Origin: Candidatus Methanoperedens sp.
Lineage (GTDB): Archaea; Halobacteriota; Methanosarcinia; Methanosarcinales; Methanoperedenaceae
Direction: 5' to 3'
NCBI GenBank assembly: GCA_028715885.1
Contig: JAQUQX010000010.1
Location: 1-51,054 of the forward strand
Length of the DNA: 51,054 bases
This document shows, piece after piece, positions 22,862-48,816 of this stretch. The position numbers were made by a program, and so were the translations under genes. The notes beneath the pieces are model-generated. The model searched no databases. It worked only from the letters and a program-made list of their open reading frames with translations, and was not told where the DNA came from. Positions within the stretch are counted from its first letter, which is position 1; the number at the start of each line of letters is the position of its first letter.

Positions 22862-23359
22862 ATGGACAATTTTATCGAAAAACAATTTATTCCACTCTTG
22901 GGTAAGTATATGAATTCTTCGGATAATGAACTTGCACTTGAGGCTCTGAAAGCCGCCAGGGGCATTGTAAATTATTATCCAGTGGATGATTTAATCCAGC
23001 CACTCACCAATGCTTTACAGCATAAGAATAAGGATGTTGCGTATCTTGCACTTGATGTTCTAAGGATGAGAACCGGTGGGGAAAAGGCGGTTTCATTAGT
23101 TTCTTCTGAATATAAAAAACTGATGTCAGATGTGGTAACCCCATTCCTGTTTACCTGTCTTGAGTCAGTCTCAGACGATATTGTCCTGAATTCGATGAAT
23201 GCCATAAGTGGTATAAAAAAGGATGAAGTCGAAGAAGTGCTCTTTGACCCCATAGCAAAGCTTTTACAGCATAAGAATAAGCAAATTGCACATCTTGCGC
23301 TGGATATAATAAGAGGCATGGGTGTCAGAAAAGAAATTCACGTCTTCGAGGTTGTATGA
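22862..23359 (+). CDS. HEAT-like repeat protein A, unknown
   Basis: 165 residues made of all-helical repeats of about 40-70 residues. The unit L.QHKN.D.AYLALDVLR near 51-69 recurs as LLQHKNKQIAHLALDIIR near 137-154, and DNA runs of CAGCATAAGAATAAG are repeated in both. This is a HEAT/armadillo-like solenoid for protein binding. GGAGG at 22849-22853 supports the start. ATGA overlap with the next gene implies coupled translation. Confidence 0.75.
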   Translation: MDNFIEKQFIPLLGKYMNSSDNELALEALKAARGIVNYYPVDDLIQPLTNALQHKNKDVAYLALDVLRMRTGGEKAVSLVSSEYKKLMSDVVTPFLFTCLESVSDDIVLNSMNAISGIKKDEVEEVLFDPIAKLLQHKNKQIAHLALDIIRGMGVRKEIHVFEVV

Positions 23360-24012
23360 TTGTCAGTGGAAAAAGCCTGCAATCATTCGCCAGCGAGACA
23401 ATTAATCCTTTTTTGAACAGGCTGTTGCTGTCTGATGATGAGGCAGAGGTTAAAGAAACATTAGATACTATAAAAACTCTCATAGATAGTGGGGTAGATG
23501 GAAGTCCTTTCCTTGAGCTGAAAAAGATTTTGTATCATAATAATAGCAAGATTGCCCATAACACACTTGATATTCTCAGAAAAATCTCTCCGGATGATAG
23601 ATGGAGAAAAGTTGAAGTTCAGAAGGATGTTTGGAAATCCATGTATCCTTTTTTTTATGACCGTGCATTCGGCGCTCCCCAAGTAGCACTGAACTCTCTG
23701 AAAATCATTGAAGGTTTAATCGAATATAATATTATAGACGACTATACTAATCTGCAGAAAGTACTGCTGCACGAAAGTAATGATGTGGCGCATCTGGCAT
23801 TGGATATATTAAGAAAGGATTTAACACACGCTAAACAGAAACGTAAAGAACCTGAATACGTAGAAAGAGAACATATAGAACGTAAACCTGTCGAAAAACA
23901 ACCACGGCAAAAAAATGATGCGCTTGAGAATCGAATTAGAGATGTTCTTATGAAGAATCCCAAGTATGCCGAGGTGTTAGAGGAAGTTAAGTCCAAATAC
24001 AAAACGGAGTAG
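23356..24012 (+). CDS. HEAT-like repeat protein B with charged C-terminal tail
   Basis: 218 residues. Two to three helical repeats share the L.KIL.H.NSKIAHNTLDILRK / LQKVLLHESNDVAHLALDILRK unit with protein A, so the two genes are paralogues. From about residue 157 the tail is very basic and acidic (KQKRKEPEYVEREHIERKP) and ends in a helix (NRIRDVLMKNPKYAEVLEEV). A protein-interaction scaffold is the simplest reading. It lies between protein A and the coiled-coil gene, with a 5-nt gap to the latter. Confidence 0.72.
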   Translation: MIVSGKSLQSFASETINPFLNRLLLSDDEAEVKETLDTIKTLIDSGVDGSPFLELKKILYHNNSKIAHNTLDILRKISPDDRWRKVEVQKDVWKSMYPFFYDRAFGAPQVALNSLKIIEGLIEYNIIDDYTNLQKVLLHESNDVAHLALDILRKDLTHAKQKRKEPEYVEREHIERKPVEKQPRQKNDALENRIRDVLMKNPKYAEVLEEVKSKYKTE

Positions 24013-29839: not shown

Positions 29840-30172
29840 ATGACACGCGATATCGGGCTGGATGTTCAACCGCCAGCAAAAGAATGCACTGATCCAAATT
29901 GTCCGTTCCACGGCATACTCCCCGTAAGGGGACAGGTTTTAAGCGGGGTCGTGGTGAGCGACAAGATGGATAAAACAGTTGTTGTGCAGAGGACATTTGT
30001 GAAAAAGATTGCAAAATACGAGCGATACGAGAAGAGAAAAACAAAAGTACACGCTCATAACCCCTCATGCATCAGCGCAAAACAGGGCGATAATGTAACG
30101 ATTGCAGAATGCCGCCCCCTGAGCAAGACGAAATCCTATGTAATTATTGAGGTGGCAAATGAAAAACTTTAG
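29840..30172 (+). CDS. rps17: 30S ribosomal protein S17
   Basis: 110-residue OB-fold protein. It begins with the archaeal extension carrying [11 protein letters not shown], then [23 protein letters not shown] and the basic [17 protein letters not shown] stretch. The final codons and TAG stop come from the first base pairs of the repeat element that follows, so the end of S17 was set by that element. Confidence 0.96.
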
Positions 30173-30236
30173 GAAAGTTTTATCAAAAGAAGGGTATGCG
30201 AAGCATACCCTATACCGCATAAAGCGAGGTGTCGCT
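30163..30236 (+). repeat. Three-hairpin intergenic element, copy 1 (before rpl14)
   Basis: 74 nt. Hairpin 1: AAAACTTT-AGG-AAAGTTTT (8 bp). Hairpin 2: GGGTATGC-GAA-GCATACCC (8 bp). Hairpin 3: AGCGA-GGTG-TCGCT, whose loop is the GAGGTG Shine-Dalgarno core. The rps17 stop lies in hairpin 1. Copy 2 follows with no spacer. Confidence 0.85.
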
Positions 30237-30313
30237 AAAACTTTAGGAAAGTTTTATCAAACGACAGGTATGCGAAGCATACCTGAACACCGGCTAAAGC
30301 GAGGTGTCGCTTT
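30237..30313 (+). repeat. Three-hairpin intergenic element, copy 2 (abuts rpl14 ATG)
   Basis: Same layout as copy 1. In hairpin 2 the outermost pair is A-T (AGGTATGC-GAA-GCATACCT) instead of G-C, a compensatory change. Hairpin 3, TAAAGCGA-GGTG-TCGCTTTA, runs into the A of the rpl14 start codon, so the only Shine-Dalgarno site of rpl14 sits in a hairpin loop. Confidence 0.85.
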
Positions 30314-30712
30314 ATGAGAGGAATGAAGGCAAAAATCCCGAGAGCTATAAATACGGCAAGTCGTATGGAAGTAGCCGATAACACGGGCGCGCGCGTTGTT
30401 GAAGTAATTTCAGTATTAAAATATCGCGGCGTCAGGAATAGATATCCTCGCGCAGGTATTGGAGATACTCTTATTGTAAGCGTTAAGAAAGGAACCCCGG
30501 AAATGAGAAAACAGATGTTCAAAGCGGTTATAATCCGCCAGAAAAAGGAATTCAGGCGACCCGATGGATTGAGGGTTTCATTCGAGGATAACGCATGCGT
30601 GATAGTGGATGATGAAGGTGTGCCAAAAGGCACGGAAATAAAAGGCCCTGTGGCAAGGGAAGCAGCGGAACGTTACTCTAAAATATCGTCCGCAGCCTCG
30701 ATTATAGTGTAG
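30314..30712 (+). CDS. rpl14: 50S ribosomal protein L14
   Basis: 132-residue subunit-interface protein. [34 protein letters not shown] and [15 protein letters not shown]...ASIIV match archaeal L14. The ATG at 30314 fits the family N-terminus, in spite of another ATG at 30323. Its ribosome-binding site (GAGGTG) is in the loop of a hairpin from an upstream repeat element. The 141-nt gap to S17 is the longest within this operon. Confidence 0.97.
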
Positions 30713-46395: not shown

Positions 46396-46412
46396 GTTAC
46401 GGAGTGAATAAA

Positions 46413-47750
46413 ATGACAGAAATAGGAATTATTGCAGTCGGCGGCTACAATGAAATGGGTCGTAACATGACTGGAATAAGAATAGACAACGATATTATCG
46501 TACTGGATATGGGACTGCAACTGGACAGGGTGCAGATACACGAAGATGTGGAAATAGACAAAATGCACTCAATGGACCTTATAAAGATGGGGGCTATTCC
46601 GGATGATACGATAATGAAAGAAGTAAGCGGAAGTGTCAAAGCTATCGTATGCACTCACGGTCATCTTGACCACATTGGAGCCATATCGAAACTTGCGCAC
46701 AGGTACAAAGCGCCTATAATAGCAACCCCTTATACCGCGGAACTGGTCAGGCATGAGATATCGGATGAAAAGAAATTTAAGGTGACTAATGAAGTGATAC
46801 CACTGAAAATTGGAGGAATATATAATCTCACACCCGATATACAGATCGAATTCGTCCGCATACAGCACAGCATTGTGGATTCGGCGTTTGCGGCTATCCA
46901 TACGCCGGATGGCGTAGTCTTGTATGCCAGCGACTTTAAATTAGACCGCACGCCCACCCTTGGCGAACCCCCGGACTTCCAGAGGCTGCGGAAACTCGGA
47001 AAAGAAGGGGTAAAAGCCATGATTACCGAGAGCACGAATTCAGGACTATCCGGGAAGACGCCGTCTGAACAAATAGCAAAAGACCTTGTACGCGATGTGC
47101 TTCTGGGAACTGAAGAGACCGAATCCGGCGTTATAATTACCACTTTCTCATCCCATGTTGCGCGTATTAACGCAATTATTGAGGCGGCAGAGGAGATGAA
47201 CAGGATTCCGGTTTTGCTCGGGCGTTCCATGGAACGCTATCTTTCAATAGCCCAGAAGATGAAATATATAAAATTCCCAAAAAATCTTGAAATACACGGG
47301 AACAGGAATGCTGTTGATAAAGCCTTAAAACGAATATCACAGGATGGAAAAAAGAAATATCTCCCGATAGTCACTGGTCACCAGGGCGAGCCGGATTCGA
47401 TTCTTACACGGATAGCGAATGGCGAAACGCAGTTCAGGATAGAGCCCGGGGATAAGATAGTCTTTTCAGCGAACACTATTCCAAGCCCCATGACAATGGC
47501 GAACAGACATGCGCTTGAGATTAAGCTGAAAATGGCGGGTGCAAGGATTTATGAAAATGTGCATGTATCGGGGCACGCGAGCAGGGAAGATCACTGGGAA
47601 CTCCTCAGAATGATAAATCCTGAGCAGGTGATACCGTCGCACGGGACTATGGTCATGCATGCAAATTATGTGGAAATGGCTGAGGACGCCGGGTACCATT
47701 TCGGGGATACAGTGCATATCATGAGAAATGGAGAGGAGATGGTCTTATAA
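46413..47750 (+). CDS. rnj: Archaeal RNase J
   Basis: 445-residue beta-CASP nuclease (5'-3' exonuclease on RNA). HGHLDH is at 82-87. ITTFSSHVARI near 237 and the C-terminal VSGHASREDHWELL and PSHGTMVMHANY histidine motifs follow. It lacks the KH part of FttA. I start at ATG 46413 behind GGAGTGA; GTG 46404 is part of that site. Its place among the isoprenoid genes is common in Euryarchaeota. The stop codon abuts the repeat element before idsA. Confidence 0.95.
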   Translation: MTEIGIIAVGGYNEMGRNMTGIRIDNDIIVLDMGLQLDRVQIHEDVEIDKMHSMDLIKMGAIPDDTIMKEVSGSVKAIVCTHGHLDHIGAISKLAHRYKAPIIATPYTAELVRHEISDEKKFKVTNEVIPLKIGGIYNLTPDIQIEFVRIQHSIVDSAFAAIHTPDGVVLYASDFKLDRTPTLGEPPDFQRLRKLGKEGVKAMITESTNSGLSGKTPSEQIAKDLVRDVLLGTEETESGVIITTFSSHVARINAIIEAAEEMNRIPVLLGRSMERYLSIAQKMKYIKFPKNLEIHGNRNAVDKALKRISQDGKKKYLPIVTGHQGEPDSILTRIANGETQFRIEPGDKIVFSANTIPSPMTMANRHALEIKLKMAGARIYENVHVSGHASREDHWELLRMINPEQVIPSHGTMVMHANYVEMAEDAGYHFGDTVHIMRNGEEMVL

Positions 47751-47853
47751 AAAACTTTAGGATAGTTTTATCAAAAACTGTTGCGTCAGTTTACACCGCA
47801 CACACGCATGACAAAGCCATGCGTGGATACCTCATAAAGCGAGGTATCGCTTT
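47751..47853 (+). repeat. Three-hairpin intergenic element, copy 3 (abuts idsA ATG)
   Basis: 103 nt. Hairpin 1: AAAACTTT-AGG-ATAGTTTT, with one mismatch. The middle region is longer and unrelated in sequence, but again has an 8-bp hairpin, CACGCATG (47803-47810) with CATGCGTG (47818-47825). Hairpin 3: ATAAAGCGA-GGTA-TCGCTTTAT, 9 bp, takes in the AT of the idsA ATG and puts GAGGTA in its loop. Confidence 0.85.
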
Positions 47854-48816
47854 ATGATTGAAGAAATCCTCCAGCAAAAGGCTAAACTGGTGGATGAGGC
47901 TATACCTAAATTTCTCCCCATAACCCCCCCGGATGAAATGTATAAAGCCATGCGCCATCTGCTGGATGCAGGCGGGAAAAGGCTCCGTCCAAGTGCATTA
48001 TTGCTGGCAGCCGAGGCTGTAGGCGGCAAGCCGGAAAACGTGCTACCTGCGGCGGTAGCTGTGGAACTGGTGCATAATTTCACATTGATACATGATGACA
48101 TAATGGATGAGGCTGACCTCAGAAGGGGACTCACGACGGTGCATAAAAAATGGGGCGTATCGAGTGCGATAGTTGCAGGGGATGCCCTTTACTCAAAAGC
48201 ATTTGAGATTCTTTCGTGCACAAAAAGCGAGCCGCAGATGCTTGTTGAAAGTCTTGAACTTTTATCAAAAACATGCACGGACATATGCGAGGGGCAGTGG
48301 ATGGACATGAATTTTGAAACCAGGAAAGACGTAAAAGAAGAGGAATACATGCGCATGGTGGAGAAAAAGACTGCTGTGCTTTTCGCGACTGCCGTGAAAA
48401 TGGGAGCTGTGCTGTCAGGCGCAAACAGGGAAATAGTACGTGCCCTGTGGGATTTTGGCAGACATACAGGTGTGGGATTCCAGATATACGATGATGTAAT
48501 AGACCTTATAACGCCTGAGGAGATACTCGGGAAAGCGCAGGGCGGGGATATTATTGAGGGCAAGCGAACGCTTATTGTGATACACGCGCTTTCAAAAGGA
48601 GTTACTATCGACGCACTCGGGAAAAGCAATGCCACACGAAGCGAGATTTCTGCTGCTATTACGGCTTTGAGGGAATCGGGTTCGATTGATTATGCCATGA
48701 ATAAGGCGGTCGGTTTTGTGGAGGAAGGTAAGGCTGCGCTCAAGGTGCTGCCTGATTCCGAAGCGAAGAAGATACTTATCGGGCTTGCGGATTATATGAT
48801 TGAGAGGAAGTATTAG
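47854..48816 (+). CDS. idsA: Geranylgeranyl diphosphate synthase
   Basis: 320-residue trans-prenyltransferase. The first DDxxD is DDIMD at 81-85 and the second DDVID at 213-217; GGKRLRP lies near 47. The residue five before the first DDxxD is Phe76, the position that sets C20 length in archaeal type I GGPP synthases. The Shine-Dalgarno site sits in the loop of the repeat hairpin immediately before the ATG. Confidence 0.96.
   Translation: MIEEILQQKAKLVDEAIPKFLPITPPDEMYKAMRHLLDAGGKRLRPSALLLAAEAVGGKPENVLPAAVAVELVHNFTLIHDDIMDEADLRRGLTTVHKKWGVSSAIVAGDALYSKAFEILSCTKSEPQMLVESLELLSKTCTDICEGQWMDMNFETRKDVKEEEYMRMVEKKTAVLFATAVKMGAVLSGANREIVRALWDFGRHTGVGFQIYDDVIDLITPEEILGKAQGGDIIEGKRTLIVIHALSKGVTIDALGKSNATRSEISAAITALRESGSIDYAMNKAVGFVEEGKAALKVLPDSEAKKILIGLADYMIERKY

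Follow-up and report, generated by a model that had tools for sequence, protein, structure and literature searches.

The mycobacterial MIRUs are mobile elements whose insertion sites are start codons and which contain an open reading frame (ORF) coupled at -4 spacing (PMC12548453, a review describing Supply et al. 1997), a design believed to keep the effect on the target gene small (PMC12548453). Rickettsia palindromic elements (RPEs) are palindromic and open in frame, and are tolerated inside coding sequence (PMC10969869). Termination-reinitiation at ATGA overlaps has been the subject of experiments in Haloferax volcanii and E. coli (PMC6728339). In the genus considered here, the Borg repeats are perfect and in tandem, and some of them fall within ORFs and have a length that is a multiple of three; such repeats have been reported as virtually absent from the host Methanoperedens genomes (PMC9879509). 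Here we analyse a repeat of Candidatus Methanoperedens that appears to work like a MIRU, by which we mean a likeness of function and claim no common ancestry. Open-licence papers on Methanoperedens, searched for palindromic and start-codon repeats, do not describe it, and the open-licence literature searched yielded no archaeal case of a MIRU-like start-codon repeat.

The window, the whole stretch of 51,054 nucleotides that was analysed, is contig C10 of a 2.09 Mb genome. The element under study lies between an RNase J-like gene and idsA in the archaeal mevalonate-pathway operon, and two further copies precede rpl14:

46404..47750, plus strand: RNase J-like gene, upstream of the element (RNase_J_b_CASP and RMMBL domains)
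47748..47750, plus strand: TAA stop of the RNase J-like gene, overlapping the first codon of the leader
47747..47857, plus strand: candidate relay frame IKNFRIVLSKTVASVYTAHTHDKAMRGYLIKRGIAL with its stop, covering the whole element (from the sequence, the frame compared with other copies)
47751..47775, plus strand: module A, left hairpin AAAACTTT-AGG-ATAGTTTT followed by ATCAAA, with one mismatched pair
47776..47831, plus strand: core of type C, hairpin CACGCATG/CATGCGTG (47803-47810/47818-47825), from the sequence
47833..47856, plus strand: module D, right hairpin CATAAAGCGA-GGTA-TCGCTTTATG (arms 47833-47842/47847-47856)
47854..48816, plus strand: idsA, polyprenyl (GGPP) synthase, the downstream gene (PF00348, E 1.7e-75)
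30159..30317, plus strand: two tandem copies before rpl14 sharing one candidate relay frame (peptide of 55 letters), its TGA overlapping the rpl14 ATG (30314)
30163..30187, plus strand: module A of the first copy before rpl14, entered by the rps17 frame, which stops at TAG 30170-30172
30237..30261, plus strand: module A of the second rpl14 copy, in tandem and 75 nt (3n) longer

All strings quoted in the initial annotation were found in place, with the left string AAAACTTTAGGATAGTTTTATCAAA at 47751-47775 and the idsA ATG at 47854. That the element is real is borne out by the left motif, matched 3 times in the window against 0 expected from shuffles, and by an idsA element region that folds better than dinucleotide shuffles (z -3.4; -4.6 for the rpl14 pair). 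The idsA element and the two rpl14 copies belong to one repeat family, as had been proposed. The mismatch in the left hairpin of the idsA copy comes from ATAG replacing AAAG. The middle hairpin exists as first described, but it is not unrelated to the rest of the family: it is the second common core type, C (AACTGTTGCGTCAGTTTACACCGCACACACGTATGG...CCATACGTGGA), found in many copies, and the idsA copy carries the compensatory pair change GTATG/CATAC to GCATG/CATGC. The module D stem includes the idsA start codon as paired bases, and a Shine-Dalgarno-like GAGGTA lies within the module at 47841-47846, 7 nt ahead of the ATG. Because the element doubles as a reading frame, the functional unit was taken as 47747-47857. 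An Rfam scan of the window returned two tRNAs only and no match at the element, and a known RNA family was rejected on this ground.

Copies at start codons have the order ATG-A-core-D-ATGA. Module A follows the consensus AAA(A/C)CTTT-NNG-AAAG(T/G)TTT-ATCAAA, while module D, the right end of the element, comes as D1 (CATAAAGCGAGGTNTCGCTTTATG) or D2 (CATAAAGGGGYGTAACCCTTTATG) and ends on the start codon. The B core is an 8-bp hairpin whose sequence varies, the C core is longer, and composite arrays contain nested or chained modules; the proposed arrangement of conserved outer hairpins around an exchangeable core (B, C or composites) is thus found across copies. In 25 distinct simple units, 97% of the stem cells are paired and 69 cells show double changes; not one of the 500 shuffles did as well, and slid controls were 37-64% paired. 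The core varies by compensatory changes with the frame kept, and is therefore a structured spacer and not a conserved sensor. Between the two roles initially suggested for it, the data favour the spacer, the constant parts being the reading frame and the junction stop, and disfavour the variable sensor, since the stems vary by compensatory change and have no conserved loop or aptamer-like sequence.

The repeat family is specific to Ca. Methanoperedens. Exact matches to module A occur in 18 of the 31 Ca. Methanoperedens genomes (1 to about 34 copies each) and in one of 294 other genomes of the phylum, as a single copy; stray matches aside, the A-module pattern was found in Methanoperedens alone. 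Records matched elsewhere by the left motif are nearly all Candidatus Methanoperedens (ANME-2d) or uncultured-archaeon assemblies. The source genome holds about 25 A-type copies, counted once weak matches were dropped, and about 25 D-type copies (0 D matches in the reversed control). All genomes are drafts with genes called by an ORF heuristic. The sole match in another genus (L091 / L248, genome G328) is one A module on a small contig, and could reflect chance or contamination. Viral spread was rejected, as a search for the repeat among the viral contigs of IMG/VR gave no match.

Placement relative to start codons, tested genome-wide, is not random. Of 136 non-redundant copies of module D, 89 are followed immediately by an ATG, and an ORF of 60 codons or more begins at 77 of these 89 ATGs. 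The suggestion that copies end at start codons holds for these and not for all, since others are intergenic or lie in other repeats, a tRNA intron and one protein gene. An ATG comes next in 53 of 98 D1 cases (50 being ATGA) and in 36 of 38 D2 cases (all ATGA), with ATGA after D at 86 of the 89 ATG-following ends. Against the background of ATGA in the same DNA (387 at start codons versus 1473 intergenic), the start-codon excess of 77/89 has a nominal P of 5e-40, the copies sharing ancestry. On the other side of the insert, 35 of 77 arrays show an ATGA in which the stop of the upstream gene and the leader ATG overlap. In the source genome the downstream genes are unrelated housekeeping genes with no pathway specificity; they include rpl14, idsA, an RNA polymerase Rpb1-domain-5 subunit and an argininosuccinate lyase-like gene, together with a class III aminotransferase, cobS, TfuA, OapB, and PUA and ABC proteins. 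This range, from rpl14 and idsA to many unrelated genes, upholds the earlier argument against a pathway-specific riboswitch, and the marks of a riboswitch, namely a conserved aptamer sequence and targets restricted to one pathway, were not seen (no Rfam match, variable cores, unrelated targets).

Empty and filled sites were compared at several loci. At rpl14, 19 of 23 orthologues lack the element and show a clean ATGA overlap with rps17, and the filled versions consist of one copy (G009), two in tandem (G000), C-D without A (G004) and a minimal A-D remnant (G014). After the loss of one A, the rps17 frame of the window ends at the TAG within the first copy. At idsA, four genomes have a bare and exact ATGA overlap and the others carry full, composite or decayed copies; more empty/filled pairs are L090 versus L133/L149 and L123/L125 versus L019. 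At rpl14, idsA and two further loci ATG(A) is present on both sides of the insert, with the exception of the idsA copies of the window and of G022, where the left side reads ATAA. Such pairs point to insertion exactly at the start codon, with duplication of ATG(A). In three genomes the decayed idsA copies keep a hairpin ending at the start codon, its sequence altered on both sides, and short leaders such as MKNFREIMFRRGRAL (then a stop) retain the overlap. The element-free loci L193, L195, L196, L198, L200 and L202 have another short leader, MK.L....KRR and a stop, which ends 9-10 nt before the idsA ATG. The repeat has presumably spread by transposition. Neither a transposase nor an autonomous partner was found at the Y1 loci and the examined element loci, the latter being inspected for A and D ends far apart around an ORF; the IS200/IS605 Y1 transposase was rejected as mobiliser, none of the three Y1 loci in the genome having modules nearby.

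Most copies encode a tiny ORF that ends on the start codon of the next gene, and ribosomes could probably reach that gene by passing through it. The frame usually begins at the original ATG and ends at a TGA overlapping the downstream ATG. In arrays chosen for an ATG at both ends, ahead of A and following D, the frame from the first ATG meets its stop at +1 (TTATGA) in 58 of 77 and at -9 (the TAA in D2) in 8 of 77. When one array was taken per downstream gene, the ATG frame was open to the junction in 37 of 40, versus 1 and 0 for the other two frames, and leaders of at least 120 nt were open in 15 of 17. Unit length depends on context: 30 of 40 ATG-led units have a length phase of 1 and 53 of 60 other units a phase of 2, the simple ATG-led units being mostly 73 nt long and the other units 74 or 80 nt (nominal P 1e-13). 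ATG-led copies with one extra base (A) before module A show a compensating length, and leaders of phase 0, whose frame misses the TGA, have a near stop only with D2, which carries its TAA at -9. Arrays away from start codons are open in frame in 24 of 41 cases. Given the selection of arrays, their shared ancestry and these open non-start arrays, the P values are nominal, and the stronger evidence for the frame is phase compensation together with the composite arrays. A few leaders are broken, such as the idsA copy of G014, and the amino acids of the leaders are not conserved as such.

The idsA copies of the window and of G022 have leaders without ATG. In both, the upstream stop is TAA and the leader codon is therefore ATA, where most copies have ATG; relatives carry, at the position of the window's TAA (47748-47750), a TGA inside ATGA. 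The ATA-led frame stays open, for 36 codons in the window copy and for about 100 in G022 (the latter read by eye), and in the window its TGA (47855-47857) overlaps the idsA ATG. An ATG, GTG or TTG start was sought in frame close upstream of the window leader and none was seen. Given the ATA, the idsA relay of the window may be either weak or dependent on a non-standard start.

Copies were also observed within proteins. At L018 (G000:C43:214-1833, minus strand), Kae1 and Bud32 are joined into one fused ORF by modules A and B, which are in frame, with the junction near codon 333 and both domains named by eye from the sequence. The same element fusion occurs in G005; in G009 and G015 two separate genes overlap there by ATGA, and in G001-G003 the two are fused through unrelated linkers. 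At L070:1495-3021 (plus strand), the reading frame leads from three tandem copies of module A into the N-terminus of the protein encoded downstream; the same holds for module A at L116:2806-3354 (plus strand), where the downstream product resembles, by eye, ketol-acid reductoisomerase.

Other contexts were found as well. An A-B-D or A-C-D insert occupies one shared position in many copies of a second palindromic repeat (AACTCGTACGAACTG...ACGAACTCACGCCGCCGGAGTTCGTACGAGTT; L059, L063, L135, L140, L157, L171, L180, L187 and L188), which is empty in L088; the comparison of empty and filled sites shows no clear target duplication there. In G022:C24:93801-94110, A modules form a tandem array with a spacing of 35-36 nt. 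A tRNA gene at L190:2977-3113 (minus strand; Rfam 46.7 bits) has a large intron containing an A module and was reported by Rfam and missed by ARAGORN, and L184, lying at a contig edge, appears to be a similar case. In the window, a 51-nt direct repeat in four imperfect copies (23014-23813, spacing 234-266 nt) is probably an internal protein repeat. The initial annotation had overlooked the leader ORF, the start-codon duplication at empty/filled sites and the mobile character of the element, as well as the copies that lie within other repeats, a tRNA intron and a protein gene.

The repeat family, its covarying hairpins, its placement at start codons, the empty sites and the conserved frame with its junction stop are, we consider it quite likely, best explained by a mobile modular palindromic repeat that would insert at start codons, preferably at ATGA overlaps, duplicate ATG(A), and supply a relay ORF with reinitiation. 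Mechanistically, insertion would favour the ATGA stop/start overlaps of operons, and with ATG(A) duplicated the leader would now start from the old ribosome-binding site and ATG of the target gene. Ribosomes that complete translation of the preceding gene or enter at the old ribosome-binding site would translate the relay peptide, reading the hairpins without a stop and ending at the TGA that overlaps the duplicated ATG (or at the TAA 9 nt before it). Module D sets GAGGT 7 nt before the new ATG and pairs this ATG with CAT at the base of its stem; in turn, the ribosome translating the leader would open the D stem, terminate on the TGA and re-initiate on the overlapping ATG. Through relay and re-initiation, the expression of essential genes would thus remain largely intact after insertion. 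We take GAGGT in module D to be a Shine-Dalgarno motif from general knowledge of archaeal 16S rRNA; the pattern of the 16S 3' end (anti-Shine-Dalgarno), sought in the source assembly, was absent. Leader translation, coupling to the downstream gene and near-neutrality are what we infer from this arrangement.

The stable hairpins with their covariation could instead belong to a domesticated cis-regulator, a translation switch sensing a ligand, a protein or temperature with the core as its sensor, and the pairing of the start codon in the D stem, retained via compensating changes in the decayed idsA copies, would agree with it. However, the cores have no loop or motif in common, the targets come from unrelated pathways, presence at a given gene is patchy among close relatives, and many copies lie away from start codons, which makes such a switch unlikely. 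Plain noise of the REP/MITE type is distinctly unlikely: start codons are over-represented with respect to intergenic ATGA, the ATG is duplicated at several empty/filled pairs, and length phase depends on context, with extra bases compensated. That reading supposes insertion anywhere, the start-codon pattern and open frame resulting from purifying selection on the survivors and from shared ancestry, and it would accommodate the copies in intergenic DNA, other repeats, a tRNA intron and one protein gene, as well as the non-start arrays that can also be open.

The leader ORFs might also be selected as a family of functional peptides, considering that long frames open from ATG and that a MKNF(R/K)KVLSK start recurs. 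The third codon position, however, shows no bias (entropy 15.6/11.4/11.4 at positions 1/2/3), for which peptide selection was rejected; moreover, covariation is seen in the stems and not in the amino acids, and the leader peptides vary in length between about 23 and 132 residues and read the modules in differing frames. We regard selected small proteins as highly improbable.

Returning to the mobile relay repeat, its likeness to MIRUs lies in being a short, apparently mobile start-codon repeat with an ORF coupled to the target gene at -4 nt (ATGA). The traits of that type are found here as start-codon location (77 of 89 ATG-following D ends opening ORFs), as an internal ORF overlapping both neighbours by -4 nt (the +1 stop in 58/77 and the upstream ATGA in 35/77), and as duplication of the start-codon tetranucleotide with respect to empty sites at rpl14, idsA and the two further loci. 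In contrast to MIRUs, the Methanoperedens repeat belongs to a different domain of life, has palindromic modules with swappable cores, forms nested arrays, and uses TAA at -9 in its D2 ends. On a narrower reading, which we put forward tentatively, it may be a first archaeal MIRU-like class, independently evolved, of frame-constrained combinatorial palindromic modules, which would target coupling junctions (perhaps by ATGA-specific recombination) and make coupling obligate in essential operons via a start codon buried in a hairpin that only the relay ribosome opens.

The remaining systems resemble the repeat in part. Like RPEs, one copy lies in frame inside a gene, that of Kae1-Bud32; many RPEs, however, sit in ORFs and become part of the protein, whereas most Methanoperedens copies are a separate leader ending at the next start, with in-gene insertion seen in one clear internal case (L018) and two N-terminal ones (L070, L116). 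MITE and REP sequences are likewise small, multicopy, hairpin-forming, devoid of an encoded transposase and patchy in presence, but the Methanoperedens repeat differs in having no terminal inverted repeat pair, its A and D ends being different hairpins, in the lack of a partner transposase or autonomous copy among the loci examined, and in its strong start-codon placement. Coupling at ATGA overlaps has the same stop/start architecture; there both partners are host genes, whereas here the repeat supplies the middle ORF. Borg repeats are also tied to Methanoperedens and some are in ORFs, but the modules described here are interspersed palindromic sequences on Methanoperedens-binned contigs, adjoining core genes.

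Taken globally, a relay reading frame would allow an archaeal repeat to spread into the start codons of essential genes without shutting these genes down. The repeat also generates new N-terminal extensions and a gene fusion, and its leader ORFs are a hazard for annotation, since they could pass for genes or N-termini. For the study of termination-reinitiation and of start-codon hairpins, a single genus provides dozens of natural cases: insertions, empty sites and decayed copies.
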